From positions 8,975,241 to 9,039,240 of the forward strand of contig NC_049989.1 of NCBI RefSeq assembly GCF_000003815.2: DNA of 64,000 nucleotides, in the 5' to 3' direction. Of this stretch, positions 3,001 through 36,600 are shown piece after piece. Made by a program: the position numbers and the translations under genes. Under the pieces are notes generated by a model. It had not been told where the DNA came from and did not search any database. It saw only the letters and a program-made list of their open reading frames with translations. Within the stretch, counting starts at the first letter, position 1. Each line of letters begins with the position of its first letter. The stretch is from Branchiostoma floridae. Its lineage: Eukaryota > Chordata > Leptocardii > Amphioxiformes > Branchiostomatidae.

Positions 3001-3640
3001 ATGCCTTGGCCATACCTTGGGAATGCCTTGGCCATACGGGAATACCTTGGCCATACCTTGGTCATAATTTGGTCATATCTTGGCCATACATTGGTCATAC
3101 CTTGGCCATACCTTTGTTATATCTTGGCCATACATTGGTTATACCTTGGCCATACCTTGGTTATACCTTGGTCATAACTTTGTCATACTTTGGCCATACC
3201 TTCGTCATACCATGGTTATACCTTGGTCATATCTTGGTCATACCTTGGTCATACCTTGGTCATATCTTGGTCATACCTTGGTCATACCTTGGCCATAACT
3301 TGGTCATACTTTGGTCATACCTTGGTCATACCTTGGCCATACCTTGGTCATACATTGGTCATACCTTGGTCTTACCTTGGTCATACCATGGTCATACCTT
3401 GGTCATTACTTGACCATACCTTGGTCATACCTTGGCCATACCTTCGTCATACATTGGTCATACCTCACGGGTCATGCCTTGGCCATACCTTGGGAATAAG
3501 TTGGCCATACCTTGGTCATAGCTTGGTCATACCTAGGACATAGATCACGGGCCATACCTTGGCCATACCTTGGTCAAACCTTGGTCATACCTTGGTCATA
3601 CCTTAGTCATACCTTGGCCATACCTTGGTTTACCTTGGTC
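1..3640. repeat. 11-bp satellite array, unit CCTTGGTCATA / CCTTGGCCATA
   Basis: The region is tandem 11-bp units, mostly CCTTGGTCATA or CCTTGGCCATA, with scattered variants (CCATGGTCATA, CCTTGGCAATA, TCACGGGCCATA and ATAACATGATCATA junction units). The unit has no stop codon in any forward frame, and 11 is not a multiple of 3. All three forward frames therefore stay open and encode the same 11-residue period (GHTLVIPWSYL), which produces long spurious ORFs. Longer-range copies are visible: the TCACGGGCC/AACATGATC block recurs near 155-200, 810-845, 1000-1035, 2065-2105 and 2225-2265. About 205-645 reappears at about 1047-1485. The array is noisier towards its right end. It is satellite DNA, not a gene. 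Confidence 0.97.
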
Positions 3641-3644
3641 AGTA

Positions 3645-4991
3645 CCGACCAATATACCCTTCAAATCATACCAAGTTTGGCGGCCTTGAAGATAGGTTAG
3701 GGTTAGGGCTATTTTAGGGTTAGGGTTAGGGTTGCGGTTAGGGTTAGGGCTCAGATCTCGACAACTAAGCACGATGTTTCAACACGGTTTGCAGTTTACA
3801 AGTACCCACAAATATACCCTTCAAATTTACCAAGTTTGGCGGCCTTGAACATAGGTTAGGGTTAGGGCTATTTTAGGGTTAGGCTTAGTGTTGCGGTTAG
3901 GGTTAGGGCTCAGATCTCGACAACTAAGCACGATATTTCAAATGGTTTGCAGTTTACAAGTACCCACCAATATACCCTTCAAATCATACCAAGTTTGGCG
4001 GCCTTGAAGATAGGTTAGGGTTAGGGCTATTTTAGGGTTAGGGTTAGGGTTGCGGTTAGGGTTAGGGCTCAGATCTCGACAACTAAGCACGATATTTCAA
4101 AACGGTTTGCAGTTTACAAGTACCCACCAATATACCCTTCAAATCATACCAAGTCTGGACGCCTTGGACATAGGGTAGGGTTAGGGCTATTTTAGGGTTT
4201 AGGTTAGGGTTTCGGTTAGGGTTAGGGCTCAGATCTCGACAACTAAGCACGATCTTTGAAAACGGTTTGCAGTTTACAAGTACCCACCAATATACCCTTC
4301 AAATCATACCAAGTTTGGCGGCCTTGAAGATAGGTTAGGGTTAGGGCTATTTTAGGGTTAGGGTTAGGGTTGCGGTTAGGGTTAGGGCTCAGATCTCGAC
4401 AACTAAGCACGATATTTCAAAACGGTTTGCAGTTTACAAGAACCCACCAATATACCCTTCAAATCATACCAAGTTTGGCGGCCTTGAACATAGGGTAGGG
4501 TTAGGGCTATTTTAGGGTTAGGGTTAGGGTTGCGGTTAGGGTTAGGGCTCAGATCTCGACAACTAAGCACGATCTTTCAAAACGGTTTGCAGTTTACAAG
4601 TACCCACCAATATACCCTTCAAATCATACCAAGTTTGGCGGCCTTGAAGATAGGTTAGGGTTAGGGCTATTTTAGGGTTAGGGTTAGGGTTGCGGTTAGG
4701 GTTAGGGCTCAGATCTCGACAACTAAGCACGATATTTCAAATGGTTTGCAGTTTACAAGTACCCACCAATATACCCTTCAAATCATACCAAGTTTGGCGG
4801 CCTTGAAGATAGGTTAGGGTTAGGGCTATTTTAGGGTTATGGTTAGGGTTGCGGTTAGGGTTAGGGCTCAGATCTCGACAACTATGCACGGTATTTCAAA
4901 TGGTTTGCAGTTTACAAGTACCCACCAATATACCCTTCAAATCATACCAAGTTTGGCGGCCTTGAAGATAGGTTAGGGTTAGGGCTATTTT
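3645..4991. repeat. 160-bp satellite with embedded TTAGGG tracts, about 8.4 copies
   Basis: The marker AATATACCCT recurs at 3651, 3811, 3969, 4129, 4289, 4449, 4609, 4768 and 4927, giving a period of 158-160 bp. Each unit holds a unique part (TTTGGCGGCCTTGAA, CTCAGATCTCGACAACTAAG, CGGTTTGCAGTTTACAAG) and two runs of TTAGGG with a TTGCGG variant. Copies differ by a few substitutions and 1-2 bp indels. The array starts directly where the 11-bp satellite decays and ends abruptly at about 4991 in TATTTTAAGACCG. Telomere-like repeats inside a subtelomeric or interstitial satellite are the natural reading. The TTAGGG strand is the plus strand. Confidence 0.95.
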
Positions 4992-5993
4992 AAGACCGAT
5001 AGGCGAGCACAGACTCGTACGTAAACGTAAATCGGATGGCGAACGCCCGTTAGTCGGGCGACGTTCGGGTGACGTTCACCCGACTTCCGATTGTTTACAA
5101 ATATTGAATTTCTGGGAATGTGAGGGTAATTCTAACATTGCGGCCCCTGTGGCAGTATGTAGGTTGGCTTTGTGAAGCACTTTCCTTTCTTGTGTCATTT
5201 CTATTATGCCCGCGCATTCCATTCATTGGTTAAAAAGATTCCGACAACAAAATAAGCAACATTTATTGATCTCTTGCCTTTTTTGAGGAGCGTTTTGTGT
5301 TCCCTTGTCCGCGTGCAAGAGGTCATGGGAGGTTCATTATCATAGGTTTATTCACAGTCGATCGCACGAGGCTCGCTTTTATGTGAGGGGAACAGGTTTT
5401 GGGCGAAAAATACGCAAGACCAACTTAAGATCTTAAAATCAGCCGACCTTCCTGCGATCGCAAAGTACGTCCGAAGATCGTATATAATGTGAGGCGGGTA
5501 TTAGGGTACCCGACAGAATGAAGAAAAGTTCACCGAAACGGCCGGAAGTAATCTTTGTATTGTATCCGGTTGTAAATATTTGTCTTACAATTTACCTGGA
5601 TATCTAACCTTGAATAACATATGAAAATTCACATTCATATGAATTTTTAAAAAACTTTTATTGGTAGAGTCAGAAATGTCAGGGATCAGCAGACTAATTA
5701 TAATCTGTTATTTTTGGTAAGTTCTAATGACAAAAACGTTAGGTAAATACCACGCTTTCACAACGTTCTTTTTACATAAGAAAAATTCAATATATGATTT
5801 TGACAAGTTTAATTTCTTCTGCTGTGAAATAATATTCTGCAGTTAATTTGAAATTGTCTTTATTTAATTTTGGCTTATTTCTCTTAGTCCTCCACTGTCA
5901 AGACTTGCTTACATCAAAATAATCTTATTTATTCATTTTACTCTGCTGAGGCTATCAACTATTTTATGATTTTTTAGGTTTCTGTAAGTCTGT
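4992..5993. other. Intergenic stretch with eroded inverted-repeat elements
   Basis: No coding exon was recognised. A CpG-rich near-palindrome lies at about 5054-5085 (GTCGGGCGACG ... TCACCCGAC). The sequence AATGTGAGG, matching the terminus of the fold-back element at 10176-10354, occurs near 5119 and 5489, with a related ATGTGAGGGG near 5382. This suggests several truncated copies. The 3' end of the minus-strand dehydrogenase gene begins at the right edge. Confidence 0.5.
5928..5933 (-). promoter_or_regulatory. Candidate polyadenylation signal (AATAAA) of the dehydrogenase gene
   Basis: TTTATT on the plus strand reads AATAAA on the minus strand, about 60 bases downstream of the stop codon at 5994-5996. 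A second AATAAA lies at 5859-5864. Position and sequence fit a poly(A) signal, but there is no transcript evidence and the region is AT-rich, so chance occurrence is possible. Confidence 0.4.
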
Positions 5994-8900
5994 TTATGAA
6001 TCGTCCGCCCAGTTTTTGGCTTCGTCTCCTATACCATGATGAACTACAGCAATGGTGTCACTTTCCACCTGATGAAAATAAAAACAAAATATGAAGAAAA
6101 TAAACATTCAAGTAAATGCTAAGACGAAGAACATGATAGTGATATATGTAAATGATGTCATAAAGCAAACGCCAATACTGACCTTTTTGATACTATAATT
6201 CCAGGTGTCATATCCTTCGGTCCGAAGAGACACTTTAAGATCTTCTTCCAGCATCTTAGGAGGATGTGAGCTTCCTGCATCCCGTCCGTACCTTCAACAA
6301 TGAACACAGAAATATTTAAATCATATTCAAGAACATTTTCTGGCGACGTCTCAAGGGCGGGGCATTTCGTAATTCTACTACTGAATGACCCAATTTTACT
6401 TCCAGGGCTAGAAATATTGGGTGCAAGTGCACCCAGGTGCACCCAAAATTAGAGCTGTGCACCCAATTATTTTCTGTGGGTGCTCAGGGTGAACCCAAAT
6501 ATTTTCTTACGTTTATGTATGTAAAGATATCAAGTATATCAAGTACACATTATATTCTTGACATCTAAGTATTAGAAAGATTATGAAAATGTCTGTCATG
6601 GTACTTGTTTAAGAATTTGATAGCTTGTACCTAAGTTTTATTATTAGTTTATTACTTAAATTTTTAAATTAAAGTAATAAACTAATAATAAAACTAGTGT
6701 GCACCCAAAAATGTTTTGGTGCACTCATTTTTTTAAGCTGGGTGCACCAGTGCACCTTATCCCAAAAATGAATTTCGAGCCCTGACGTCTAATATGCGCG
6801 TTGATTCATAACATTTCTGTTCACCTTTTTTAATAACTGACCGATATTAAGAAAACTTTTTTGAGCATAAAATGAATCCGTCCTTGAGGCGTGTGCAAGA
6901 AAGAGGTGACCAACTAAAAGTTATTTCCTACCTAAACATGGCGCGACGGTAGATCTGTTCCGTCATGCTCAGGAGATCAATCGGCACATCCGTGTCAAAC
7001 GCCAACTTCCGACCAAGGTCAAGGTCCTTGAAAATAAAACAGAAAGGTCAGGTGGTGGCGTCCATGACCCAAGAGAAATAAATGTTTTCTTTGTTTCCCA
7101 AAATCTGTTATAATCACTTGAGTGTATATTTCGTGGAATGGAACCAAATGGTATACACATCCTCAGTGCAAAGATGCTATATAGCTGCTGTAGGTTTTAC
7201 CCAAAACACATGAAGGCGCACGTGCACGTGCGCACTCGGATATTCGTAGTATTGTTGGAAGGCACTACTAGTATTGTTACACAGGAGCCAACTTTGGATT
7301 GCCATTTGTTCGCTTTATGTGCTTTCTTTAAGTTAGGTTCGATGGCATGTGACAGAGAAATCTAATTTGATTCTGCAAGATACTCAAAGGAAGAATATCT
7401 GGATATTCTGTACAAATCTATAAATTTGCCACCAAACTATGCTATGCTATTTTGATGATAGACTTTGATCGATAAACACCAGTTTATGCAAGGAGATCAC
7501 CGAAACGTGCAAAAAGTGCGCACATCCAAAATGTGAAAAAGCAACCAGCAAACAACGTTCAAATGTTATAACGAAGCCGCTGCCCTTATATTTTCACTAC
7601 GCCTCAGGAGTGGAGCCTTTGGAGAATCATTGAAGTTACCTTACAGTGAAGCTTGATGGCAAATCCTGGCTGGTACGTGCCGTTAAACATGAGGGGTGCT
7701 TCGGTCTCGAACACGAAGGAGTTCCCCGCGGATGCACGGATTCCGTTCCAGAAGGCGTTCAGGTTGACGCCATTTCTCTTCGCCATCATGGCGGCCTCAC
7801 CGGTGAGAACCATGTGCGCTCCGGCCAGCATGTTGCTGATCACCTGAAATATTAATACATGTGTAAAATAATCTTCATCACTGAATAGTGTCGGGAGACG
7901 CTATAGGTTATCCGCAGTATTTGATCCACTGCTCACCGAGTCACGTGTCTCATCTGCATCAGATGACGTCATAAAGCTGGTGGATTACTCAACCCATAAC
8001 AAGGACTGGTTCTGTTCTGTTGAAAAATTTGGTAACGTTCAGTATATATTCTATGCTGTGATGAAAACCACGGTATAATCTTGATTGATAAAGTCTTTTA
8101 CCAAGGTTAAGGCAGAAGTCCTTTCAAACTGCATGTTGCTGCATGTTGCTGCATGCTGCTACCCCTAATTCCCATAAAATGCCGATTAATCATGAATTAC
8201 ATCAATGCACTAGCTATAGAAACCTTAATTTATTAAGTTGGCAATCAAGATGCATAATTCCTACTTACAAGAATATTTCAAGGTCTAGTGAAAGTTTACA
8301 GATTGTCTAATGATGGGTAGTATATCCAAGTAAGCTGATAAGTAGTTTACAGAGCATGTAAAAAAGAGGTTTTTGTTGCACCTTGACGATACTGGCATGT
8401 CCCGCCGGGCCCATATACAGAACAGTATCCGTATAACTTCGTATCAGCGGCTCGTACTGGTTCAGAACAGCCTTGTCTCCTCCGACCAACACAGTCATCA
8501 GCCCGGCCTTTAAAAGTTCCATTCCACCTGAACTCACAGAGAGGAGAATCAGTGAATCAGTTGGTATCTTTAACCGTGCACATGGACTGCATATGTGTGT
8601 ATTTCCTTGTGTAAAACAGACAATAGAGCTACACCTGGGTTTTGAAAGGGTCAGCCATTGGACATGAATAATATTGATGAATTTGATTAATTCTAGAAAG
8701 AAGTACTTATAAGATAACACTGAGGAAGCCACACGGCGAAACATGTTTGTTGTGTGTCGGTTCGAATAAAGTTCCTAAACGGGAAACATGCGGCTCCAGC
8801 GTCTTTTCTGAAGATGTGGCGTAAGTGTGAACGGTTGGCTTGAGGTTGTTCTTCCCCACATACTATATAGAAAGAAGTACTTATGATACTTAGAAAGTTG

Positions 8901-9783
8901 TGCGGAAAAGGAGTTAAATTTTATGGTCAAAATATAGCATTTATTGTTTGAAACTAGAAGTGGTAAAGGACTTTGAAGTGATTTTGAATGGGACTTGAAG
9001 ATTTATGTCTTTTTAAATTTGGATGTGATATAATATCAATAAGCCTCAATAGACCGAAACAATGATAAAGTTATATGTGCAATTGAATCCTTTATTTATG
9101 TTTTTCTTCTCATTAGTTTAACAGCAGTACTTAAAAACTTGCTAGATCCAAGATGCCGGTCGGTAGTACAGTCCTTACCAGTAAGGGGGCACTCCAGCAT
9201 GTCCACACCCCTAGCCTGCGATTTGGCGAAAAGTCGCATGGTTTCCTCATGATCCGTGGTAGTGTGGTCAATCCAACAGCTTCCAGGCTTCAACAGGTCC
9301 AACACGCCGTCCTCTTCCATAACCTTGAGACAGAAATGTAGATATCCACACCACAAAATCTCAGGTATCAATACAAAACGTTACGTACTAGTACTCTTCA
9401 CAGGGAAAGAAGTGTTAACGTATCATTGGTCCAAGCCCTTTCATGCAGTTTGTCGTGCGGCATTTTAAGACTTTTTGATATGAAAGTAAAGAACATCTAC
9501 ATAGCGAAAGCTGATGGTTTTATGTTCGATACACCTTTAATACATTGACGGTCAAAGTATAGGTGACTACATTTCCTTGGGGTGGCTCTGTATGTGTATT
9601 GCAGGATTTATTCGTTTTGATACGTATACAGAAACGGCTATAAATTAAAGATCATTTGTACCCACTATCATTATACTGCGGTGCATTTGTGATTTAACTG
9701 TTGCTTTAAATACATTTTTGCTTTTTGTCTGCCCTCGCTCCAGTAGTTATGAAACCATCTGGTATGGTATAGACAGGTTAGAG

Positions 9784-9815
<32 letters not shown>

Positions 9816-11443
9816 TCATCGTGTGTATTTGCAGCCAATGCCATATGGCAATGACAGTTTCAAATGGCTACAACCGTTTGCGCGACAGACAACAGCGCCG
9901 GCTCCGTTACCTGTCTGACTTCAGGCGGGGCCGGCAGGGCCGTGAAGAGAACCTTCTCGGCAGCCCGGCCCGCCTCTACCGACGAGCCTGCCCAGGTGGC
10001 CCCGTGCGACTCCAACTCGCTTTTATTGGACGTATCAGGGTCATACATTGTCACCTGTCAAGTCAAAACAGTGCAGTGAACAGACTAACTATTTAACACA
10101 CTTATTTGGCCCTGAATAGTATTTTAGGACAGAAAACGTGATAGTTGGTTTGTTGATTGTTGGAAATTCTAATACCCCTCACATTAGGCGCGATTCGATC
10201 GGACGACGAGTCTGCGAGCTCTAAATTACGAGGAGGTATGACCCTGACGGGAAGGGGGAACTCTGCCATTTCTTCGTCGGCATCAGGGTCATGCCTCCTC
10301 GTAATTTAGAGCTCGCAGACTCGTCGTCCGATCGAATCGCGCTTAATGTGAGGGAGGATAATGACATGTTTCCGAACGGTTATTTCAATAACTGTCTATC
10401 ACATTTTTCTCTCTTAAACACAAATTTAGGCCAGTTGTGACAACCATTATCACGTGTAAAAGTTAATGCGGTTTTCGACTGGAAAACTTTTTTGAACTAA
10501 AATAATGTGATAAACAGACAGTGTTCAGTAAACCTTTAACAAGTATGCCGATTCAAGAGCGCATTTTCATGAATTTACCTTTTTTTTTATTTGTGAGAGC
10601 TATCAAATTGAAAGACAAACATACTAACTGCTTATGGTATTTCATATTTAGTGTTGTATTCCTACAATATTAATCATTTCTGCCTTCGTAAAACACAAGA
10701 CAATTTGACCTAATGATGATAAGAACTTTGTGTATCCCTGTTTACTAGTGTATATACTGAAAAGCTACCATATATTGGATATTCAAGTATGTTTATTGGA
10801 AATATCTTTCCAGTCGATGTAATGTCTGCAATATTAAGAATGTTCTCCTTACTTTATGGCCGTGTTTAATAAGACCCAGGGCAACTGCTCTCCCAACATT
10901 TCCCCCTCCTATCACTCCGACATGTTGACTTGCGAGATTACCTGTCACTGGACTGAAAACAACAACAACAATAATAATAATATCAACAACAGTAAAGTAA
11001 AACATACTTGTTCTTTAGGAGAGTTGAATTGTTGTAGCTGATAAGACCAGGAACGTTTTGAGCGTATAATTTTGGCAACTTTTTGAAGGCTTCGTTTTAC
11101 TTTTTGTAAAACTTACAAAAGAAAACTCCAAGTAAGAAAATCCCACCAAACAAGCAATCGAATACAAATGCCCCTGCAGTTCTGGAAAAGCCACTAGGGG
11201 GCACAAACCTACACCAATTTTGTCTTTGTCCCAAGTGCTATATACCACTATAAAATTAAAACCATAGCACGAGATATCAAAGCCGGGAGACGAGATATCG
11301 AAGTCGGAAGTTCTACTGCTCTGCCAGAGAAAGCCGTTAGGGGACCATTGTCAAACATAACCTTTGTTCATCCGACCCCACCCACCTGACAAATATCGTG
11401 TTGACCCAGCGACAGCTTCTCGAGTTATGCTGTTTACAGACAG

Positions 11444-11486
<43 letters not shown>

Positions 11487-12128
11487 CACATACACACACA
11501 CACACACACTGACACAGATGGCGTAACGGCACCGAAAATACTTAGTAGCCTCCTTTGCGAAGGTAACAAGAGTGTATGCACGATCGTTAAGGCTTATATG
11601 GCGTCAAGTTTCCAAACGGGTCCCGGCTGGGCAGCTTTAGTGCACATAAATTATGATATCATAAAAAGACGCCAAACTACACAACACGTAAAGATGATAG
11701 TCGTGGGCATTATTTGTGCATATTTGTATACGTTTACATTTTCATTTACCGTTTCCACAAACATCCCGACCGGGCTCCGGTTTTGAAATGTGACGTTATC
11801 CTATAATAAACATGTATGAGGCCTAGGTAACATTTTCTACCCGGGGCCTGGCCGGGCTGTTTGCGGAAACGAAAAAGTTTATGCCAACAAATATGCACAA
11901 TGCATGTTGCTGAATTATTTTCGGTCCGTTTTGTGCTTTTGTTGTATTTTATAGATCATACTTATCGTTCCCGAAAGCTGCCCGGCTGGGCCCCTTTGTG
12001 GTAATGTGACCTTGGCCTTACCTGGTTGAGAAAGTCTTCAAGTTGTATGTAGCGACTTGCTGAACCACTCTGGACTGCTGCAGGGCGTTCCTCAACACAG
12101 AACCCGTACGTAGTATTGCGCTTGCCAT
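5994..12128 (-). CDS. 3-hydroxyisobutyrate dehydrogenase family protein, mitochondrial (9 exons)
   Basis: Exons (minus strand, high to low): 12128-12022, 10952-10853, 10054-9911, 9323-9179, 8527-8382, 7843-7640, 7026-6932, 6291-6183, 6068-5994. All junctions are GT-AG and all phases join, giving 374 residues. Residues 1-36 are Arg/Ser/Ala-rich without acidic residues, a likely mitochondrial presequence. The Rossmann motif is G51-x-G53-x-x-G56. D74 after the second strand suggests NAD rather than NADP. FTALPAP (106-112), DHTTT (136-140), PLTGG in place of the usual PVSGG (163-167), catalytic K214 with N218, SAG (252-254) and KD (282-283) are all in family order. Family members oxidise beta-hydroxyacids such as 3-hydroxyisobutyrate in valine catabolism. 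The tail after YRRAM is about 30 residues longer than I expect for animal HIBADH, so the exact substrate is uncertain. An in-frame upstream ATG at 12236 is possible; 12128 is preferred because the presequence starts there. Confidence 0.88.
6403..6784. mobile_element. MITE-like element with CAGGGCT terminal inverted repeats
   Basis: The left end CAGGGCTAGAAATATTGGG and the inverted right end CAGGGCTCGAAATTCATTTT are related terminal repeats, followed on both sides by GTGCACCC-rich subterminal repeats. The centre holds a near-perfect palindrome at 6634-6695 with arms of about 30 nt. No transposase is present and no clear target-site duplication was found. It lies in the intron between dehydrogenase exons 7 and 8. 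Confidence 0.7.
6634..6695. repeat. AT-rich palindrome inside the CAGGGCT element
   Basis: Arms beginning AGTTTTATTATTAGTTTATT and its reverse complement flank a short A/T loop. The arms are about 30 nt with roughly one indel. The sequence could extrude as a cruciform or hairpin. Confidence 0.85.
8131..8160. repeat. Short tandem repeat, GCATGTTGCT
   Basis: About three copies of GCATGTTGCT, the last diverged to GCATGCTGCT, lie in a dehydrogenase intron. Confidence 0.7.
9786..9815. repeat. (AAT)n microsatellite
   Basis: About ten AAT repeats lie in the intron between dehydrogenase exons 3 and 4. Confidence 0.9.
10176..10354. mobile_element. Fold-back element with 72-bp inverted arms
   Basis: The left arm 10176-10247 (starting CCCTCACATTAGGCGCGATT) and right arm 10283-10354 are reverse complements over 72 bp with about two mismatches, around a 35-bp loop. 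The element is CpG-rich, unlike its surroundings, and has no ORF. Similar CCCTCACATT termini occur around 5.1-5.5 kb, pointing to a family. It lies in dehydrogenase intron 2. Confidence 0.9.
11444..11509. repeat. (CA)n microsatellite
   Basis: A long CA run with two interruptions lies in dehydrogenase intron 1. It generates spurious His/Thr and Cys/Val ORFs. Confidence 0.97.
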
Positions 12129-15100
12129 GATGATCAGCCTGAATATGTGCCCTGGAAGCGAGGAAACAATGCCTAAGTGCACACACGTTAAGCCCTGCCA
12201 CACATTCCGTACTGCGACATTACCCCGGGCCTTCACAAAACGTTGGCGGGTTGGCCTTGGAAACTGGTCCGACTCGTTTCAGACCACGTGAGTCTGTCAC
12301 AGCTGCAGTGAGCATGTCACAACCATTTCCCAACCAGTACACGACAGCACATGCATTGAGTAACTCACGAACTACTAGTACTTCCATCCGAATTGCTTTC
12401 GGACTCGGCCACCAGCCATTCTGAAATTTTGCCCCAGACTGTCAAATTTTTCTTACTGATTTCGAACAAATTGCCAACTAACGAATTTAAATTGACAGAG
12501 ATTCACTCCGTAGAAGGTCTCTCAACGTTCCTGTTTTTTTTTTGTCTTTCTCTTTGCCTCAATGTAAGAAGTTAAACACGTAAAATGCTGGACGACTCAC
12601 GTCCCCCTGCACCTGGCTATTGAGTAATGATTAACGTTAACAGGCCATGGCCTCCTCGTCTGCTGTGATTCAGAGGGGGCGTTCGCTAATGAGTAGGTTG
12701 GGGTGGGGTGGGCTGGCGGTTGGCTGGTGGTTCACTGGTTGCATGGCGGTTCCAACCGACTTTAAAAGTTGCTGCTACGGGTAGAAGAGATTCTGGTGGA
12801 GGTATGTAGTTAGACACAATATGCTGGGGAAAACTATTTATCACCTCCAAACTTGATTCAATACCACGCCACCACCATCGACTACCTCTCAACCATTTCA
12901 CAACCCATCCCGCGTCACCCGACCTTTCAACGATATCCGACAACTTACGAATTTTCACAACATTTTGAACATTCTGCTGAACATCTGAACAGTCAACCTT
13001 AGTCGGTGGTAGATAAGGAGTAGTTAGGACGCCATGTTAGACCAACTGTGACGGGGGCTTTGTATATGGTATACACAAAGAAAAGCCAACATGTCCCAGA
13101 ATGTAGCTGTAAGCAAACATGCAAAATAAGCGCGATTAAGTCATGCGAACCGGTCAAGAGTCCACACATACACATACATCGGACTTTGTCCAAGCGGAGC
13201 TCTAGGACGTCGATTTGACTCACAACGCAGATAAGGTGTACGAACCACCATGACAACTTAACTAGCAAACCGTATCAGTCCCATGCCAAAAAGACTTGGT
13301 AATTGAAATTCTTCGCCCACCACTTACCTTAGATATACCAACATAACAGACTTTTCATTTGACGTCAGCGTATGCCTGTAAATCACACGAAGATTAGTTA
13401 AAGATTCAAAATAAAGGTACGTAAGATGCTACTGCTTAATTCAATTACCCGCCAACATGGTAGTCGAAGGATTTAAATCATAATTAGTACGACGTCAATG
13501 AAAAGCCTGTTACCTATTTCTCTTTTACATTTCACCTGTCTTTTGGTGGCAGATAGACCGTCTCAAGCACTCTTTGAGTATCAAGATGCAAATGCTATGT
13601 ACTACATTCTTATTGGAGGACGCCATTTAGGTAATGTGGCTAGTTTATGCAACTATTTCGCTTCGCAGTGTATCATAAGCAAGTTTTTCATCAAGTATAA
13701 ACCCACATTCAGTGTAAGATATAAGGCGAGCACTGAAAAAAGTACATCACCTGTAACCAAGCCAGCTCGTTCTGCAACGATATCAGTTTCTTTTGACACT
13801 ATGACCTACTTTTCGCCAAGGTAAAAGCGCCGCCATGCGGTTTTCGCAACAATCTCAGAACTAAACGAAAAATATCTCATACATCGTTTGGATATTTAAA
13901 AGGCAAACCAGCAAATAATCCAATCCATCTAAAAAAGCAAGCATTGGCACACGTGTCAGTGCATAAATTCACACGCGACAGCACAGAAAATTTTAGTTAT
14001 TATTTGCTATTTCCAAGAGCTACCGAGTTTCAATGGAGGGACAAACCAAAATTCATTAGCAATAATCCTATTGCTCTAATCTAACCTACTTTTCACTGCA
14101 TGCGGTAGGCGAATCATATTAGTCAGGCCATTTCATGTTGTACAGTTTGTCAATGTTGAAAAAGTCGACCTTGTATTCGTAACTTAAAGTTTAATGTCCC
14201 CATAAAAGAAATGGTTTGTTCTAATCATTTTATCGTAGACTTCAATCATAATCATCACCACTTGCGTTTCACCTGACCGACCCAAACTCGAATCAGCTGG
14301 GTGAAGACAATGCCCGCCACCCGAATCCGACATACAAGCCACCCACCACAAACTCGAGTCAGGAATCCTGAGTTGCTTGTATCATGCACAGTCAGTACAG
14401 TATCATACTTTGTCTAGTCTGGAAGAGTACAAGGGTGGGACCAACTTAGCCATGCGACCTGAGCACTCTCTCGTGCGTATTAGCAAGTCTTGCAAGGTAA
14501 ATTTTCATGGACGTTTTCTCATTATTCTGTTCGCTTGCTATCCGTTGTAAACAAGCAAAAAGAATGAGTCAGTGGCAACTACATAAAAGATGGTGGTACC
14601 CATCCTAGGCATGGAACCAAACAAAGTCCAAGGCTTATTTTCAGCTGCAGTACCGTAAGCAACTGCAACCCCTGGTCGTGTGCTGCAATTAATTTTGTTA
14701 TCTCAGATAACCAATCATACAAGACCAATGACACCAGGTGAATTTTCTAGACTAGACCAATGGTAGACCAGCCCCTGTGGTTACCTGTCTGACGCCCCAA
14801 GTGTCGCGTCTAGTCTGCCAGCCGTCTGAGGTGACAGACTCACCTCGCGACTCCCCCTGCAGTATCAAACGACATCACGGCCGAGTTCTTTGTACTTTTG
14901 ATAAGCCGGATCTTACCCAAGACTACAGGTTAGTAGGGTCGTTTTTCACACAGTGCTTTTATGGATTTTATGCATGTTATCATTGGTCCAACGTAATAGA
15001 AATAATCGGTAACGTTAACGTTGAATTCTTGTACGACCATTGGAGGATACAAAAACGCAAACCTATCGGCACTTACATGTAAGGCCTCCTTAAGTTTGTG

Positions 15101-19556: not shown

Positions 19557-22500
19557 GTAAGTTCCAACAATATTCATTGCAAGACAGTCGTGCGATCGTA
19601 ACGTGATAAGGACATTCTGGGAATAGTCGAACTGGGAGAAGACTGTAAGATCCTTGTCGGTGGTTGGTGGTTCCACTCGCCAAAATCGTCACTGTCAGAG
19701 AATCATCCTTGTTATAGCAAGATTTTCATGTCGAATGTTGCGTTTTTCTGAATCACCATTTGTAAGAAGCAATGGGTACCGTTTTGGTTTGATGTTTCTT
19801 GCAAGCGACCGTTTTGAAATCAAGTAAATGAACGTGATGTAGGATATAGACGTACTCTATGCAATATGGTTGTGTCTAGTGTTAGTACCAACAGCCTTGT
19901 AGACGTCGAGATTTAGAGGATAATTTATGGCTTCTTCCTTCAGAACGCATAGTTTTCAATTTCAGCCAACCGTCTAAGCGAATCAACCCAGAAACCACAA
20001 TTCCGTATATATAGATGTGCTCCAAGGTTTTGGGTGTGCCCTGCCCGATCTTGGCTTTAGGCTTTATGATCCTTTAATACATTTCTTGAGGGTTGGGGCC
20101 GTAGTATTTTAACATTATTTGCCTGGCCTATGCTGCATTTGCAAAGGTACGTAACATAAAGTGCTCTCTTTATGTACTCAATCCAACAAGTGGTACCACA
20201 AAGAACGGCCATTCAGCAATCGAAGATTCTGCAGCTCCTTCTGTTTCACATTTTGTGCCCGCATCTCGACCGCCGTGTTGATCTAGAAAATGTATTGATG
20301 CTCGTGTATACATGTAAGTGATCGCAAGCCTGCAGTTCTTGATTAGATTTGCGTTTCGCTTTGCGTAAATCGTCTGCCCTAATGATCTTACTGGTAGGCA
20401 GATGTTCCGGAAGTACATTGTCTAGAAAATACAAGTGTAACATTACGTACTTAGTGTAAGTACATCTCATTTGTTCTGGTGTCTTTGCGCAACCACTTAA
20501 AGCTGCCGACTGAAACAAGACACATTGCATTCATTACTTTCAGTCAGAACTAGCTGTAAGGAAGATTGATATGTTTTCCTCTGTTATATAGCGATCACAT
20601 GCATCAATGTCGCAACAATGAATGGGGTAGCGTTACAGCTATGTTTTCTAGCCGTGTAACATATGACGACTTTCCACAAAAATGACCTCAAGCTTTGCTC
20701 TTTATTGCGTTTGCCAAGAAGGCTTTTTCTAACGGTTTAACGTTTATAATGTTGTTCTTGTTTATTGAACAACTCAACCACGCCAGAGATGATTTTTTAA
20801 ACGAAAATTGGCACGTAGTTAAGTCTCTAAGGTTTTGACTTATCAACGGAATGACTGGACTATGCCTCCGGCTTTCATCGACACTTCAGAAGAATCCATT
20901 TTGTATTTCTTGTTCTAGACATGTTTTCTCTCTCACACTCTCACATGGCAGGGCGTTGTCGACATGTTATGGTCACAATTTTAGTGTTACGTCTTTTGCT
21001 AATGAAAAAGTACCATAAATTTCGGATCTCTAGACACTTCCCCAGGAACTACAGTGATGTTTTAGGTTTATTTCCCCGTGTCATTTTGCAATTCTACGGT
21101 ACAGTTTATCATTTTATGCTTATTGCTCGGTTGAAAATCTGCACTGATAGAACTAACATGAAAGAGTGTTTAAGTGTGGTTTTCGTCAAGTTTTAGCACA
21201 TGTTAGATTACATAAGCAGTATACCTGTAGTGTTATTCATCACGTTTTAGCACATATTAGATTACATAAGCAGTATACATGTAGTGTTATAGCAGCTTGA
21301 TTCCTCAGGTTGATGAAACCGGAAAACCCGGGCAGGCCTAGGGGAAACATGTTGTGGTTCCCGTTGCATTATCGGCCCTAGAAAAAACCTACCAAAACTT
21401 TTTTAGTTGGCCGCTGGCAAAAGATTGAAATTCGAAACAGGCTTCTTGTACAGCACAATGTAAGCGCAAGACACGGAAATAAAATGAAGTCCGTTCGTTC
21501 GTTCACTCATTCATTCATTAACAGATTCGAGCTTTGAACTTTTGATGTAATAATGCGCAGTAAACATTGTACTACTACGTTCATTTTATTATTTTGACCA
21601 ACCAATGTATATGTATACCTGTATGATCACGATATGATGTTATACATAACAGTGTCTGATACATTTTAGTTTAAGATAAAGAAAATGTAACTGTAGGATC
21701 ACTTTGACCAAAATCTTTTAAAAAAATAGAAAAACAAGAGAATCTGTACCAACCGGCCCCGATTTTTTTAAAGACTGTAATCGGAAAAAACGACATTTTT
21801 TTCCAAGTAGTACCTAAAAGCATTATCACGATAACAGCTCTATAATGCTTAAGGAAACGAAAACGTGTATGATGCTATACAGAGAATATAATACATAGAA
21901 TACAATATAATTGCAGATATCACAGAGATCGTCACACATATAAGGACAAATACGTTAGCCACTGATGTTTTCTTACAGTAGGAGTTTGATCAAGCTACGA
22001 CATGGTTGGCCCTGGAAATGCTAGATTGAACAGTTTCGTATATAATGTTCATCATACAGACGTATATAGCGATAACGTGGTTCGGTTCTGATTAGTTGTA
22101 CCTGTTGCAAGATGTGATAAAGTCGGTTCTCCTTATTACCAAGCTTGATATAATATTTACATAACTTCTTTGTTCATAATCGATCAATATTGGTGTATAT
22201 GTAGAGGCCTTTTCCTTTTTATTGATAATCTCCGATATTGACACAATGCTAACACAATGCTTGAAGTCTTTGAAAAGCATAAACCACAGATACCCACCTT
22301 TTTTATTTTGAAATAACAATAATACATCATGCGTACTAGACTGCATTACAATATCATGGATTAATTAAAAAATGATATAAAATTTATACAATAATGGATT
22401 TTACGTCAGACACAGACGAAGCCGTCAATAATTAGATGATTAATGACCGCAATGAAACAGGCCGATTCGTGGGGAATAGGGGATTTTAATTTGTGTAACA

Positions 22501-25500
22501 AGAATTAGTTTGTCGTTTTCAAAGATAAGTCTAAACTTTTAACCGTTCATGTAGATTTCAATACAGTTCTCTTGAGAAACCCTGAGGTATTTTCGATTAG
22601 ACGATGTACATTTTTTCAAATTCTAATTTGAAAAAAAAAAATGCATCCGGAAATCGTAAGAAGAATCTCTCTGGTGCAATCCTTCCTCCAATTTCCGCAC
22701 CAGTCTTAAATTCTCAACTCTTTCCCTGCCGTTTGAAAAATTGGAAATCCGTTAACGAGTCCCCTGGCACTCCCCTATGACGTCACTAACGGTACCTTTG
22801 ATGATTATTGGTCGCCTGGAATGTACGACTGTCAGATATATAACATGACCTGTGGCATCTTTGAAGAGTAGGTCGTCAACCAGTATTTATGAAATCAGGG
22901 AGCTTTCTTGATGATATCGAGATGAAACCACATTCACATAGCATTTGGGTTAAACATGTAACTTAAGCTTGAAAAAACGCTTGTCAGTGTAATATCTATA
23001 TTTTTTAACAATGCGGAAATATTTACAATCGATATATCTGCCCTAAACGTATTTAGTACATGAATTACAAATGTATTTCCTGTTTTAAATGCCCCTTTAT
23101 TTGGAACTATATATTATGGTTGTTATTTAATGCTTGTTGCCTTAAGTCTCTACCATTTGACAGTACAGTGCTTGGGCGAAGTTAGTTAGCTCGTAGTAGC
23201 CCGGCAGTGTATTTGCGTTACATGAACTAACGTTATTTAGACGTACGAAAGAATGATTGCATTTCTTTTTTCTCGAAAGAAACTAAATTGTTGTGGCCTG
23301 ATGCTTGTACTTCTTGATATATATATACTCACTAAATCTGCGCAACCGACCACATGTACAGTAAGCTCATGGCACACACGGTATAAGTTATTATGATTTG
23401 TGAGTTTGGTTCTGGTATTAGTTGTCAATTCTGTATATGGGCTGATTTCTCTCTGGGTAAAGCAGCATATATTTGGGTTAATTGCTAAGGGCATTGTTCC
23501 CACAACACGGATCAACTTAAAGCCTGCAGAAACACTCATAACTCAAAGTATACTAACCTAATGGTACTTGACTAGTGCCTCGTCCCTCGTTGAACATACC
23601 TTTTCATCGGTCTTGTTACACTCGATGGAGACCACTTATAAATTAGTGGTCAACGATTTAAACATTGATGACCCATGGATTTGTAGATTTAATATGATAA
23701 ATGATGTGAAAATTATGATTTCAGAGACAACAAGATACACACAATACTTACGAAATGCCCTTCTTTATCAGCGAAATACTTTCGTATTTATTTAATCAAG
23801 AAACAAAAAAATATTCTCAATCTTATTGTATTCTCTTTTCCATTTTCATCTTGAAACGCTGTAACTACTTTATACAATCAAATTAATTGACGATTTATCT
23901 ATTAAAGAAACAAAATATTTACAATGTTACCAATAGTTCTCATACAACGACACCGTGGCCTTTGGGGTGGGATTTGCAAGTTACAAAAACACATGTCACT
24001 GCTTCTTTAACAGTGGGGACGAGTTCATCTTAGGTTGAGCGAATAATTGTTACAGACCACTTGACTCCCCACTCCCACGTTATTCAGTTTACCGCGTCCG
24101 TGAACAGGCCATGAAAGTCTAACCGACTGCAACTGAATAATTCTATTTCTGCGGAAGAATAAGAGCGGCCACTCACTCAGTCCCCAAAAGCTCCCGAAGG
24201 GAATGTGGTGCCAAGGTCTACAGTAACTGTTCTACAGTTCTGAGCGGTCACTGAGCAAATTTGCCATGGCAGGTTTCTGGTTGTCACTAGAAATCGGGAT
24301 AGTCGTCATCGCGCATACGTCGTACAAAACTCTTGTGGCACTTGTTGCTGCCATAGCCTACAAGCGTACTTGAAAATTCTATATATTCATAATATTATAC
24401 AAAGGTCTATGACGAATGTAATCGCGCCGTTAGTCTACTTCGTTTTGGTTAGCTCCGACAGATTTATGTATTGTGCGTTTTCCATTGTGTCGGGATTCAG
24501 CGCTTGGTAAGGTGACTCCTCGGGTATGGCGTCCGGGATGTTTTCATAGATCGTACCTCGTAGATCTTCGGGAATTGCATAGCTAGAGTCTCTAGGTGCT
24601 TGGAATCCGCCCGCGGTGTTATGATGTCTGTCGTGTCGAGCGTTTGTGCCTTCCGGCTTCTTGGACCTCACTGTAACGTCTACGTCTTGGAGATTTATTG
24701 CAGCGTAGATGTGAGAGTCTCGCGGCTTTGTAGAAGGATCATCATGCACATTGTTATACCGGTTAGCCTCTTCGGCGGCGTGTTCAGGGCTATCAACGTC
24801 TTTTCCTCTCGCCTGCGAACTCCTGTGAATGGGACAGAAATGCAAGGTTTTTAAGGACAAGTTTTTATCATCCTCTCTTGCTAAACCCGCTGCTGCTGCT
24901 TGTGTACGCATTAAACGATCCTGGCGTACCGGCGATCCGTCCTTCTTGCTGCCAGCCAATCACGTCGCTGCCAACGGCCAAGAGGCAACGCTATTGGCAG
25001 TTCACTCTCCCTCCAATGATAGGAGGGGGAGTATCTGATTGGCTAATGACTGGCCCGACTTAACGCAGCAAGAAGGACGGATTGCATGTCGGTACCCCAG
25101 GGCTGTTGCTCGATGCGTGTAACTACAAGCAGTGAGTCTGGCATGTCATGAGAAGATGGATTCTCCTAGACTCTTTAAGAATCTTCAAGTCGCTGGAAAA
25201 GAAATTATACAACTGGGCTGAGCAACTCACATTCAATTGTTAGAGGGGAAAAGTGATTCCTTGCAAAGGTTTACCTGCGAGAAGCAAGTCAAGAAACATT
25301 TTAGTTTTCGGATCTGCAATACATACCTCCTACGCTTATTGAGAAAGAACACTGCTCCTCCACCTATAACACAGAGGACTACAACAGCAGCGACGCCGAC
25401 AGCGATGGGGACTACAGGAGTAGTTTCTGAAAAAAAAGTACCAAAAGGAAGTCATAATGTGTTCTGTGTATTACAAATCAAATAAATATAATCAGTCTGT

Positions 25501-28500
25501 TACTCTGAAAACAAGCATGTTATTATGTTTTCCACAGTTGACCATTAATATTAGCTGTAAAAGCCTTGCCATTGCTAAACTTCCTTGCCCTACGGACATG
25601 TAAATTACTAAATTCCAACGTGTGAACACATGTTAACTAGAGTATAACATTAGCACTTCTTTACTATTTTCAACACTACCTATACCCTTATTAACCTACG
25701 CATATGCATCACTATATAACAAAATATACCAAACTAGAGCCATCATTATAGAATATTTACACCAACACTTACTTACCCTTTTCAACTCAACTCAAGGCTA
25801 CCGTTACTCATTTATCTAGTCACATGCATTAAGGTCTTACCTTTATCGCAGAATAGTTTTTCATCGTCTTCCCCGGGGCAGTCTGGAGTACCATCGCAAA
25901 CTTGCTCGTAATTGATACATTTTGCTCCTCCTTTGCAGCGATACAGGTCCTCTAAGCACTCTAAGAGAACAGTCATTGTAAAATTAACAACTATATTAAT
26001 ATGATTCGAATAATGATAACTTCTGCATTGCAAATTATGGCCTACAGGCTATTTGTAAATAACAATATAAATTTAATTGATGAAACACAATGACAAAATT
26101 GGACCTGTGGTCACTCAAATTTTGATTTAAATCTACATTTTTCAGGTTTGATTCGACCTCCTTTTTCTAAAAAGTGGGTTCTATTATCTTAATTTTGGAT
26201 CGAGGAGTAAGGTTTTCTTTTATTCTGTAAACGTGGAGAAATTAGAATGTATCTATGTGACTTCTTCAAATTGCTCACTTCTTTCGGAATCGTCATGGAA
26301 ACAGAGTTTACAAGAATATTTGTCAACCAAGAGCCATCCTCGTTGTTGTTTTTGTCTTGCTTTATATTTATTTTTCCCAAATAACCTCAACAGGCAGCCA
26401 CAGTTTAGTTCTACATATTAAGAAAAAGGAAGAGATAAACAATACCTCCATTTTCCTTTGTTCCTGAATTCAACGGCGCGGTGCTAGAAGACGGATTCTG
26501 CTGAGAACGCTTCCCTTCAGTTGCTTTGTTGCTTGTTATCACGATATTTGTCAATAGAGTTGCATAGAGGGTGGTTGCCGTGGTAGCTGTGTAACCTGTG
26601 GTAACTGTATCTTCAGATACAGTGGACGGTGTAACTGTTGATGCAGCGGTCGGTATTGTTGTTCCAGGTGCAGTGGTCGACATTGTTGTTTCAGATGTAG
26701 TGAAATGTGTTGTACGAAATGGATCTTGAGTGGTCGGTGCAGTGGTCGACATTGTTGTTTCAGATGTAGTGAAAGGTGTTGTACGAAATGGATCTCGAGT
26801 GGTCGGTATTGTTGTTCCAGGTGCAGTGGTCGACATTGTTGTTTCAGATGTAGTGAAAGGTGTTGTACGAAATGGATCTCGAGTGGTCGGTATTGTTGTT
26901 CCAGGTGTAGTGGTCGACATTGTTGTTTCAGATGTAGTGAAATGTGTTGTACGAAATGGAGCTCGAGTGGTCGGTATTGTTGTTCCAGGTGCAGTGGTCG
27001 ACATTGTTGTTTCAGATGTAGTGATATGTCTTGTGCGAAATGGAGCTCGAGTGGTCGGTATTGTTGTTCCAGGTGCAGTGGTCGACATTATTGTTTCAGA
27101 TGTAGTGAAACGTCTTGTGGTCAGCGCTGTTGTGGACAGTTTTGTTACTACAGTGCTTGGATTCCTGGTCGCCCCTAAAGTTAGGGGCAAGAAAACATAG
27201 GTTGCTGGGAACTCCATGACATATAAGAATGATCATATACTAGTCTTATCTTTTATGACAATATCTAAAATTCCACAGTTGGATGGATGAAAGTAAAGAT
27301 GAGCCTCTGAGTAACAAAGAACATATTTGCTGTTTGATGTGAATCTATCAAAGGATATAAACATGGCAATTCTTTGTTTCAATGGAATTCGTTCCATACA
27401 TATCCGCAAAAGAGAAGAAGATTTTCGTAAAAAAAAGGAAAGATTTTCTGACTGACTTTTTCTTGAATGTTACGTTATGCCTGATTTATTCTGCTGAGTT
27501 GAAACATGAGGAAGCAAACACGTTTACTGCACAGTATGAAAATAGTTTTGTCTTTGAAGGCGAAACAAATAGATATTGTCTGACTTCTAAACTTTCTGAT
27601 TCGCTACATTTCTATCAAAGATACTTATTACTCTTTTACTCTTTACTCTTTAACAACATTATCATGTCAATTGTTTCCTTCATCATTGTACCACACGTGT
27701 ATTTTGAATGAAGAAGTGGGGAGGGGGGCGGAATGATGACGTAGCCAGGTAATTGATTGTGATTAACGTTTTTCACCGTTCTGTCGTTTCCTTGTCGAAG
27801 AGATCTTAACCAGTGTGTTATATATTCTATGTTACGAGTGAGTTTGAGTTATATCTCAATCAATTCTATCTAGTTGGTCGGGGCAACGTTGTATGGTATA
27901 AAATAAATTCCAATCAAATATGAGTAGAATAGGAATATAGCATGTTTACAAGCATTTGCATAATACAACAACATTCAAACGTGACCACAAACAAAGCTTA
28001 ACCTTTTTACTGTGTATCCGCAATTCTTGTACACGATAATGTACGCTTCTAATAATTTTGTCGATATCATAATATGCCTATTTTTCTGGCTTTTCAAAAA
28101 CGAATACTAGTAGTAGATGATCAGATACAGCTTATCGAGATGATACTGACCTGTCTCCAAAGTGTAGAAACACACACAAACCATAATCAGGAACCGCATT
28201 TTCAGTAGTAGTTGTTGTCTATGAACTTGTCCACTTCTTGCCAACACTGAATATTTTGTCCAGAGACCTTTGTCTAAACGTCCTCCGCGTATGGCTTATC
28301 GGAAAAAAACTTCCCTCTATTGGCTCTAACACTTCCCGAACTTGTGAACAGCGTTATCTGCGATCTAATAACACAGCACTACTGGTCGAGCCAGTCTGAT
28401 CATTATTTGCCTTGGATGAAAGCGTACCAAATTATCCTTAGTACATGGGCTATGCAAATACACTTCTTCTTTTTTCAAAGGGTGTACGAAATTTGCGTGT

Positions 28501-31500: not shown

Positions 31501-33565
31501 GGGGAAATGTACGCGATGTGCGTGAAAAACGCGAACATAAAACTTTAGCGATTATCTACCCCTTTGTTTGGTTCTTTTGTTTATTAATTTTTATCAGAGG
31601 AAAATATCGCATACATTTTTTTCTCGATGTGTCATGTTCTCAGTTCCTCTCAATGTACAATGGGAGAATGCCCCCCCCCCAAAAAAATATTAACATCAAA
31701 TTAAGTTAAAGATACGAGTATGTTTTACCATATATTTCAAGGCATCCGGAATTTTCAAACTGTGAAAAGACAACGGGCTTACTATAAAGCTGTAAAACTG
31801 TAACGTATCCCACATTTTTCTCAACAATTGTCCTTACAAAATAAATCAATATTTCTAGGCAACGCCCTCTTAAGTCGTAAAGAGTACGGGTACAAGATAG
31901 ACAAGAGGATCCTTATCTAAACTTAAATAGCTTTCAGGAAAACAGTTACTTTATTTTAGCCATAAAGTTGTCTTGTCTTGCGAGCTTTTAAGTGCAAAGT
32001 TTTGAACATACCGATAGAAACAAAAGCAACCGAGTAAGCTAGAATTAATGGGTACTGCTTTGGGCGTTCAGCACACACGAGTCGGATAAGATCCTCTTGC
32101 AGACAAAAGGAAGTCAGACATGACCAAGTCGGGACCGGGAGAGCTCAAGAATCGAACTAAGTCGCCGGGTTGAAAGCCTAATGTACCGGTCTCTGTGCCA
32201 AAACAGCCAAATTCAATTATTTTCAGTGGAATATGATGGATAGCGTAGATATTGCAAATCCTTTGTTAAGCCTTGCTTGAGGTTGCAGGGTTCATTGTGG
32301 GGTGTACCTTCACGTTATATTTCATTTTACATATGCCAATGATAAGTTTCATCATACAAACTTGGCACAGCTACAATAGGTTTTAAACCTAACATGTGTG
32401 ACAAAATTGCTTTTCTCTTCGTCTATAGGAAATTAGATTACAAAAACCTTTAATGAACAAAAATCGGAATGGGTTTAAACCTAACATGTGTGACAAAATT
32501 GCCTTACTCTTTGTCTATAGGAATTTAGGTTACAAAAACCTTTAATGAACAGAAATCGTATTCCGGACCCTAATGCACACTCTGAGTTCAACTCACACAC
32601 TATTAGTTGAGGAGTGAAAATCAAATGTAGTATAGAGATAAGTTAAATTTCGACACCCTGCCATAAATGGGAGCTGGCTTTATTAAAGCACTCTCGTACA
32701 TCTGGTGGGAATGTACACTTTACATCAATTTTGTTCTCTTGATGTATTTTGACATCTTATATCCTGTACGAGTACCACTAGTATGGGTATCAAACTTTAA
32801 TGAAAACAAAGATGACAGAAAAGGGTAAGTGAAAAATATGTTGTTGACAGCACCGTAGTTATATAGGTTCAGAATAAATGAAATAATAGTAAATGTCAGT
32901 GTAAATAAATCCGTTTTCACTATAGTGGTACTCAAGAATAAAAAATCGAAGGGCGTGGGGATACAATGGAGAGAAATGGCTGTCTACGCTCTACGTGTAA
33001 ATGTAAACTTCATAAAACTTACTCATTCGAATATTCCTTGTCAGATAACTGATCTCCTTTTTCCAATGTGGAAATCATAGTGTAATACTGCATTACGAAG
33101 AAAGGCTGCTATTATATTGCAAATGCTCGTGGAATGTGTTACACATGTAGGTACTAAGAAATGTTCCCGTGGACACAGCTTTAATTATAACACATATCCA
33201 CAAAAGTTGAGAGTGATATATTTGATATTTTGTTTTCAAGGCCAGCTACACCGAACACGCTCGTCGGTAGCGTAGCTCTAGGTTATAAGGACTTAAAGAA
33301 ATAGATCCTTACGAAAGCAGGTCTGCAATATTGGTGTAAGATGGCCCGTGAGAGACATGTAGGGGATTTTGACGAATCCGTATGGATTGGAATCTTTGAT
33401 TTATAACCATGATCTACATGAGTGTAATGTTCAGCTAGGTTTTACGCGTAACGTTTCCCCTGTAGCGAGATACTCTGCTTCTCTTTCTTGGCGCTATACC
33501 CATCTGATGTCTACCTTGAAAATCGGAGGGAAGGGGGTATACGCGCTATTGTGTGTGTGTTTGTG

Positions 33566-33606
<41 letters not shown>

Positions 33607-36600
33607 GTGTGTGTGCACTTGTGTGTTTGTGTTTCCGCTTATTTGAGGCCAACTTCTGAATGATCGAATGAATTGTGTATTTGAGCAGGTATTCAGTAGA
33701 ACTTCAGGTTTTTGTATCTTTTGGCCTGGAAAATGCTATGCTCTTGATTTTATGGGGGGTCTATAGATATTTATGTCAGGAAGAAGTGTAGGTTTGTGCC
33801 TCCTATCAGCTCGCCCTTTCTTAACGCTGTACATCACTGAAAATAGCGGAGACCGTTTATTCAAAAGCATTCTCTGGTGCTTGACTCATTGATTCAGCAA
33901 ACGTTATCATCAACACCACACTATATACCCCAGTACCAACTCCAATCCCCTCTTAGTTCCTCTTCCTTACCTTAACACGCCGCATTAAGTATAATCTGTG
34001 CACATTGGATGTTCCGCCACACAAATGTCATTCAAGTTGGCATTCATTATGACACCCATATGGACTATATGCTACCGAGCTGTAAATATCACGCCGTTAA
34101 GCCCAATAACTATGATTGGTAAAGTTTGGGGCAGATTTTTCTTTCATTTATCTCTGGTGGCAACGGTTCAACCGCAGTCACCTCCCAAAGCACACACGGA
34201 TGAAAACAATGACTGCATGCAAATCGATGCATTGATATCATTCATGAAAAAACGTAGGTGATTTTTAAGTAGTCACATAGCTTTCTAGAGGCTCTCGTAG
34301 GGACAGTAGGTTCTTATATATATCCACTATGTCTAGGGCACAGTATTGGAAGGTGGAGCAGGGCACAGTATTGGAAGGTGGAGCAGGGCACAGTATTGGA
34401 AGGTGGAGCAGGGCACAGTATTGGAAGGTGGAGCAGGGCACAGTATTGGAAGGTGGAGCAGGGCACAGTATTGGAAGGTGGAGCAGGGCACAGTATTGGA
34501 AGGTGGAGCAGGGCACAGTATTGGAAGGTGGAGCAGGGCACAGTATTGGAAGGTGGGCAGGGCACAGTTATGGAAAGTGCCTATGCGGAGAGAGGAAAGT
34601 CGTGCCGACAAGGAACACATTGTCTAGCCAGAAACAGCCGGGATCGAACCCATGACCTCTAGATCCCGTACCCACTACGTTTTCATCATTGATATGGTGT
34701 CTTTAATGGGTGTCAGTTATTGATCATTGACCCTTAATCAATTTCAATCCCAGTGAACCATAACACAACAGGCCCTGTGGGTGGGTGGGGGGGGGGTGGT
34801 AAGTTTGCACCATCAGTTTATGCCTGGATACAACGAAATTTCCTTTAAAAATGTTTTTGGATTTGTGGGCTGTTATTCACTGACGCGTGTATTGAGAGGT
34901 GTAGTCTATCTCTCTTTTTATCACCTTCCAACACCCAACTGAAGTCAGATACTCATTTTCACTTGTTTAAAGAGAGAGATGCCGTATAAAGTGCTTTTTC
35001 CTAAAGAAAACAACTGCTAGTCATCAGTAACGTGGGGACAAATACCGTCTGCGCTGACTCGGCAGGTGCCCCAATCGATTTGTTACTAGACGTTAAGTCG
35101 GATGTGTTTCTTGGCCTTCACTGACCGTGTATTTGTGATGACGGTGCCAATAAGTCGCCTTGGGCTGATGATTTATCATTCGGCCTTGCGTTGTCGCGCT
35201 CGATTCTAGACTTAATCCCTTCGCCTTAGCTCGGACAAACTTGCAATATGAAAAGTATTACAGTTAAACCTGGACTCAACCAACCACCTCTTAAGGGACC
35301 AACTTTACTTTTATTGAGATCCAGAATAAGCTGAGGAAAGGGTTGCTCAGAACAGGGTAGAACTGAAAAATTAACGGGACTCCGTAAATAACTTCATCAG
35401 GTGGGTAAATATACTAAATTAGTAGTAAGGTTCTTGAAACACAACCAAAGTAGTTTTTACTTTCAAGTGCTGCAGCACCACCTACATAGGCTATAAGTAG
35501 CAGTGAGAAGTAGATCCAGCCATTTTACACTGATAAAAGTGTCTGATAGACACCGAAGTGTTGGAAGTGAGTACTACTTTGGTTGTGTTCCAAGAACCTT
35601 GCTATATTAATGTACTGGGCGGCCTTAATGTGGCTTGTGTCTGGAGGTGGTTGTGCGATCAGGTGTGACTGGATATCAGTACAGGAGGGAAGTATCGGAG
35701 AAACAATTATCTTATTTCAAGGAGAGGGGGAACGGTCTGGTGTTTTCGCCCTTCATTTTGTACGTAATTCATTTTCCTTACTCAAGAGAAACTTGCTAGA
35801 GGAGCTATTTTCTTAGAAGCCAAAAACATAAAGAAGAAAAATCCTTAACAGTTCAAGCTTGTGGATAAAGGTGCCACTTTAACAACAACAAGATGATGTA
35901 CTTTTATTGATACGGAATGAAGCAGGGAAATAATTTAAGAACTAGATAAAGTCTGTTCAGAGTCAGGCGTCATCCACTATCTTTCATTTTTGACTGAGAA
36001 TAAGAACATCCATGTCTAGTTTTCTGATTTATTTTGTACTGCATAATACATTACCTTGTGTCATCACTTCGTCAATGAAGCAAAGAAATATTCTAATGAA
36101 CTGTTCAACATATTATGTCAATTTTATATGTATATTGACCGGTTTATGTTTGTTATATACATCCTTGATATTTAATTATAAAAGAACTCTTAAAGCTATC
36201 CCTCTCAACATTTTAAATTTTTTAAAGTATATGTTGTAACACACACTTTGTTGGGACACATTGTACGCATGTTATAAAGCATTCATTAGTATAAGATATA
36301 ATGCACTAGTTCAGTTATAAAATACTTCCCAGAATTTGTGGCGCTTTATTTTCCAGGAACCACCAACAGCCTTGAATCACACACATGAATGGGTTCGCTG
36401 GGAGGTTCGATATTCAATGGCTTGAAAAATAGGAACCAAGGAACCCATGAAAAGTCTCCATTTTTCTCGACACAGAATAGCACCATTATGTCATCAAAAT
36501 GTCTAATACGCAATGAATGTTTAAATGATAACTTCCATGTGCATTTCATAAATTCAGAAGAAAGTCAAAGTATTCTGTTTAGTTTGGGCAGCTTTAGCAA

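Follow-up and report, generated by a model that had tools for sequence, protein, structure and literature searches.

What kind of protein does the gene carrying an LDLa module encode on the minus strand of Branchiostoma floridae contig NC_049989.1 (RefSeq assembly GCF_000003815.2)? The gene lies between positions 8,975,241 and 9,039,240 of the contig, a stretch of 64,000 nucleotides which was analysed in full, is hereafter called the window and provides the coordinates used below. A preliminary description of this DNA had depicted an apparently undescribed receptor in which a mucin-like stalk presents an LDLa module above an immune-receptor-like tail, an interpretation that is partly supported by our results. 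The reading that we favor, to which we would give about an even chance, is that of a single-pass type I mosaic receptor or co-receptor, built from phase-1 exons and provided with a phosphotyrosine tail that would dock SH2 proteins.

The five-exon model spanning 24435-28199 (Table 1) is confirmed as a prediction and its coordinates are correct, the splicing of the exons being predicted from the sequence. Joined by GT-AG introns in phases 1, 1, 1 and 2, the exons (49, 729, 120, 100 and 388 nt) yield an open frame of 461 residues, and none of them contains a stop codon or a frameshift. Upstream of the start in exon 1, a stop is found 33 codons away without any in-frame ATG in between. Scored with a splice consensus against every GT or AG of the window, six of the eight chosen splice sites exceed the 96th percentile. 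The GC content ranges from 43 to 51% in the exons and from 31 to 34% in three of the four introns; the fourth intron, which holds a palindromic element, reaches 47%. The succession of signal peptide, repeats, LDLa, transmembrane (TM) helix and tail given in the preliminary description holds as a prediction, and the Pfam search of the whole protein retrieves LDLa above its cutoff and no other domain or family at E values up to 1. The phase symmetry (1-1) of the LDLa exon supports the mosaic reading. Regarding the membrane topology, a hydrophobic 10-mer of exon 1 has a mean Kyte-Doolittle (KD) value of 2.79 and crude cleavage candidates follow residues 16, 18, 19 and 27; the TM helix peaks at a KD value of 2.71 over 19 residues and is followed by the basic NKRRR. 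A type I single-pass protein, with a signal peptide and one TM helix, is probable on this hydropathy.

The LDLa match (PF00057) reaches 26.3 bits for a cutoff of 24.1 and covers residues 260-294 and profile positions 2-35 of 37; the sixth cysteine, at residue 297, falls just beyond it. All six cysteines and the CDG..DC....DE pattern are present, and the acidic positions of the calcium cage, assigned in part from passages of PMC5847621, are kept. The module probably binds Ca2+. It matches 41 PDB sequences, including CD320 and LDLRAD3 (E = 0.059), the closest being modules of LRP2, VLDLR and LDLR. One six-frame pattern scan of the window detected no LDLa module besides that of exon 3. The position of this module changes the picture of the ectodomain: because only six residues separate its last cysteine from the TM helix, which begins at about residue 304, the Thr/Ser-rich region would be outermost and the LDLa would sit at the membrane. 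The idea of a stalk presenting the LDLa is thereby reversed. Its use as a recognition head fares no better, given its membrane-adjacent position and the lack of the lysine-gripping aromatic residue of some LDLR modules. According to the same passages of PMC5847621, lysine-gripping modules of the CR2/CR3 type have an aromatic residue two positions before the fourth cysteine and an amide or acid two positions after the CDG aspartate; the aromatic packs on the ligand lysine in CR2 and CR3 of LDLR, while CR6 and CR7 do not conserve it. In our alignment, YKWVCDGS of LDLR LA1 faces YEQVCDGT, so that a glutamine replaces the tryptophan and a threonine occupies the second place; the module was rejected as an LDLR-type lysine-gripping module on both residues. 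The missing aromatic makes ligand binding by a lysine grip less sure and, together with the membrane-side place, makes it probable that the LDLa works in cis or with ligands that are small or soluble.

The tail comprises about 129 residues and six tyrosines, and the cluster that these form is non-random. Five of the six fit YxxPhi (P = 1.4e-4 in 100,000 shuffles of 131 residues and P = 3.5e-4 in 20,000 shuffles of 129 residues). Three fit YxNPhi (P = 2e-5), and by this cluster the tail open reading frame (ORF) ranks first among the 276 of the window that run from stop to stop over 60 aa or more; the three YxN have a P value of 0.0055. Two relaxed immunoreceptor tyrosine-based activation motifs (ITAMs, with x6-12 spacing), having nine residues between, are also present (P = 4e-4), as is one motif, TIYENI, resembling an immunoreceptor tyrosine-based switch motif (P = 0.03). 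Since phosphorylated YxN motifs bind the Grb2 SH2 domain, the three copies suggest docking of the Grb2 type.

Several observations weigh against a signaling tail of immune-receptor type. The motifs, twelve of which were counted in the test with 20,000 shuffles, were picked after inspection of the tail, and their P values are uncorrected. No strict ITAM (YxxL/I-x6-8-YxxL/I) occurs, on which ground a strict ITAM receptor was rejected; among immunoreceptor tyrosine-based inhibitory motifs (ITIMs, [I/V/L/S]xYxx[I/V/L]), the form that combines I, V or L at -2 with L or V at +3 is absent; the single S-type ITIM (SPYQAL, P = 0.15) and the single YxxP (P = 0.38) are at chance level. YxxPhi is also the consensus of AP-2 sorting signals. 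What stands of the immune-receptor-like tail is its tyrosine cluster, without a strict ITAM or an I/V/L-type ITIM, and an immune role of the predicted protein would be conjectural. Comparisons of the tail with other sequences brought little: 63 weak PDB matches at E values up to 5, of which the best 60 are all of the NMDA-receptor GluN1 type (best E = 0.096), were judged to be due to chance, and searches for relatives of the tail exon in bacterial and archaeal contigs (40 pattern matches) and in viral contigs (three), which did not extend to animal genomes, confirmed none.

From the frame, the LDLa match, the TM hydropathy and the tail motifs, we infer glycosylation, disorder, phosphorylation and SH2 docking in the following way. 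The signal peptide would be removed and the distal Thr/Ser/Pro-rich repeat region, presumably O-glycosylated, would lie outermost, with the single LDLa, probably loaded with Ca2+, against the membrane. The TM helix would lead to a presumably disordered tail, where a Src-type kinase could phosphorylate the clustered tyrosines; the phosphorylated tail might then dock SH2 proteins, those of the Grb2 type at YNNV, YENI and YINL, and possibly SH2 phosphatases at SPYQAL.

The main rival to Grb2-type docking is endocytic sorting, and sequence alone fits both and does not separate them. The protein would then serve in endocytosis or trafficking, as a receptor or co-receptor whose YxxPhi motifs would be AP-2 signals and whose LDLa would hold soluble cargo or a cis partner, without any phosphotyrosine signaling. 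The YxxPhi consensus at five of the six tyrosines fits this scenario; LDLa modules are frequent in endocytic receptors, and a juxtamembrane LDLa, like that of Neto-like proteins, would suit a co-receptor acting in cis. Nevertheless, the tail lacks both NPxY and [DE]xxxL[LI], the Pfam search retrieves no CUB domain and, since one signal suffices, five clustered motifs including three YxN would seem to exceed the needs of sorting. We consider this alternative as worth keeping in mind, though somewhat unlikely.

The repeat region gives rise to another alternative. Threonine and serine make up 46% of residues 18-262, a range of 245 out of 461 residues that passes exon 2 by three residues. Repeat length variation is likely because the 84-bp units match at 96%, as seen in one copy of the locus. 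Other frames of the exon 2 repeat are open too, on both strands, and its long open frame is for this reason no evidence of coding. Pairs among the four full copies (two partial copies were left out) differ by one to six nonsynonymous and zero to one synonymous changes, so purifying selection is not seen in this comparison, a point against the favored reading; mostly nonsynonymous differences are expected of a young repeat under no strong constraint. The protein could be mainly a membrane mucin in which the Thr/Ser-rich region, distal and about half of the whole, forms a barrier or anti-adhesive coat, the LDLa and the tail being accessory. This is quite unlikely in view of the non-random tail cluster, of the lack of a SEA or any other non-LDLa domain in Pfam and of a region that is short for a mucin.

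The gene model itself has weak points. Among 60480 combinations of splice sites (which omit one listed exon-2 acceptor, at 27239), 1200 likewise give an open frame, and the open frame alone is weak evidence for this reason. Two splice sites score only moderately, namely the exon-2 donor (86.0 percentile) and the exon-3 acceptor (85.3). Exon 1 would become needless with another start, in exon 2 (MEFPATYVF..., ATG at 27217, hand-counted), although the hydrophobicity there is lower (1.68). That exons of two genes, or of a pseudogene, were joined by eye is nonetheless very unlikely, given five exons with fitting phases and without stop or frameshift, the sensible order of LDLa, TM helix, basic stop-transfer and tail, and the GC contrast between the exons and three of the four introns.

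Table 1 Features of the predicted receptor gene (positions in the window)
Feature	Position	Strand	Description
Exon 1	28151-28199	-	Start codon, probable signal peptide (MRFLIMVCVCFYTLET...); donor in phase 1, 98.1 percentile
Exon 2	26446-27174	-	Distal mucin-like region with Thr/Ser-rich repeats of 28 residues (84 bp); phase 1-1
84-bp tandem repeat array	26736-27118	-	About 4.6 copies, 96% matches; 28-residue unit
Exon 3	25841-25960	-	Six-Cys LDLa module, Cys1 = residue 261, Cys6 = 297; phase 1-1
Exon 4	25327-25426	-	TM helix (beginning near residue 304), then the first part of the basic NKRRR stop-transfer
Palindromic element	24932-25085	.	Intron 4, non-coding; 21-nt arms, 95% complementary, 112 nt apart
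Exon 5	24435-24822	-	Cytoplasmic tail, six tyrosines (YNNV, YAAI, YAIP, YENI, YQAL, YINL) and stop codon
Candidate polyadenylation signal ATTAAA	23791-23796	-	~640 bp past the stop; nearest of four printed by the scan

By its look, the palindromic element of intron 4 resembles a miniature inverted-repeat transposable element. With the gene's own region masked, tblastn found no paralogues within the window and blastn only three matches of 13-14 bases, taken as chance. Neither Rfam nor a tRNA search retrieved anything in the window, and the flanking ORFs compared with Pfam (9 + 10 of the 154 ORFs of at least 70 aa) gave no match at the cutoff. The window begins with a large satellite (1-3646; 11-bp unit TGGTCATACCT, about 326 copies, 80% matches), followed by a 160-bp tandem repeat with GGGTTA telomere-like units (3641-4992; 8.5 copies, 95%). 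Other repeats are a 25-bp minisatellite (34335-34579; 9.8 copies, 98%) and two tandem duplications, each in two copies with 92% matches, one of 92 bp (32382-32558) and one of 54 bp (21182-21290). Between 7604 and 11014, the minus strand carries exons (7604-7900, 8307-8774, 9096-9380 and perhaps 10793-11014) resembling 3-hydroxyisobutyrate/2-hydroxy-3-oxopropionate dehydrogenases. These pieces have matches among the NCBIfam models, with scores that all fall far short of the cutoffs for the whole protein, and that at 7604-7900 matches seven PDB sequences of such enzymes and their relatives; a possible leader ORF of this gene (12018-12278) has no NCBIfam match.

Coming back to the receptor with a predicted SH2-docking tail, one more shuffled receptor would not be surprising in amphioxus, and it is plausible that this is a fairly ordinary kind of mosaic receptor. 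Passages of PMC2575513 describe innate receptors of amphioxus in which domains are combined in many novel ways, its main text being without the term LDL. Two amphioxus receptors offer a precedent, namely BbLcLRR (PMC8211107), with its tyrosine motifs and its action via Lck, and a Grb2-associated phagocytic receptor devoid of a cytoplasmic tail of its own, reported in PMC10199209, where a phosphotyrosine co-receptor is proposed as one possible explanation for FrLRR. A highly improbable extension would be a lineage-specific invertebrate family, in which the O-glycan repeat head faces outward, the LDLa pairs in cis and the YxN tail lends Grb2/SH2 docking to tail-less partners. If the gene is expressed and the tail phosphorylated, it would add to the cases in which exon shuffling couples an LDLa with tyrosines for SH2 docking, and would offer a candidate co-receptor in studies on the origin of phosphotyrosine immune signaling; if not, it would be one further predicted mosaic membrane protein.

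How does this architecture compare with known families? The preliminary description knew of no standard family with the same order. This stands insofar as the protein lacks the compared hallmarks of the LDLR family and of LDLRAD4-like and TIM-like proteins, and the word "undescribed" applies to Pfam, the PDB sequences and a partial, amphioxus-leaning set of open-licence literature, judged by titles and the starts of abstracts, in which the same domain order was not found described. The LDL receptor family (LDLR, VLDLR and LRP2) shares the LDLa module and provides its closest PDB matches, but it has clusters of modules where a single one is found here; it was rejected on that count and on the lack of EGF and beta-propeller matches in Pfam and of NPxY in the tail. 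The O-linked region of LDLR also lies C-terminally in its ectodomain, according to passages of PMC5847621, whereas the Thr/Ser-rich region is distal here.

CD320/Tva, LDLRAD3 and LDLRAD4/PMEPA1 likewise combine few LDLa modules with one TM helix, but differ from a protein with a long tyrosine tail and distal Thr/Ser repeats; an LDLRAD4/PMEPA1-like protein, defined by PPxY, was rejected since the tail has none. TIM proteins have a mucin-like region and a tyrosine tail. In them an Ig V domain stands above the mucin region, while the globular module here lies below it, and a TIM-like mucin immunoreceptor was rejected in the absence of any Pfam Ig match at E values up to 1. LAT-type adaptors carry multiple Grb2-type YxN motifs in a single tail, and LAT is not known to have an ectodomain as large as the one predicted here. 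Finally, amphioxus BbLcLRR is a membrane receptor with tyrosine motifs in its tail, which passages of PMC8211107 describe as ITIM or ITIM-like and as acting via Lck and SH2 phosphatases; its ectodomain is made of LRRs, and its likeness to the protein predicted here lies in the tyrosine motifs of the tail.

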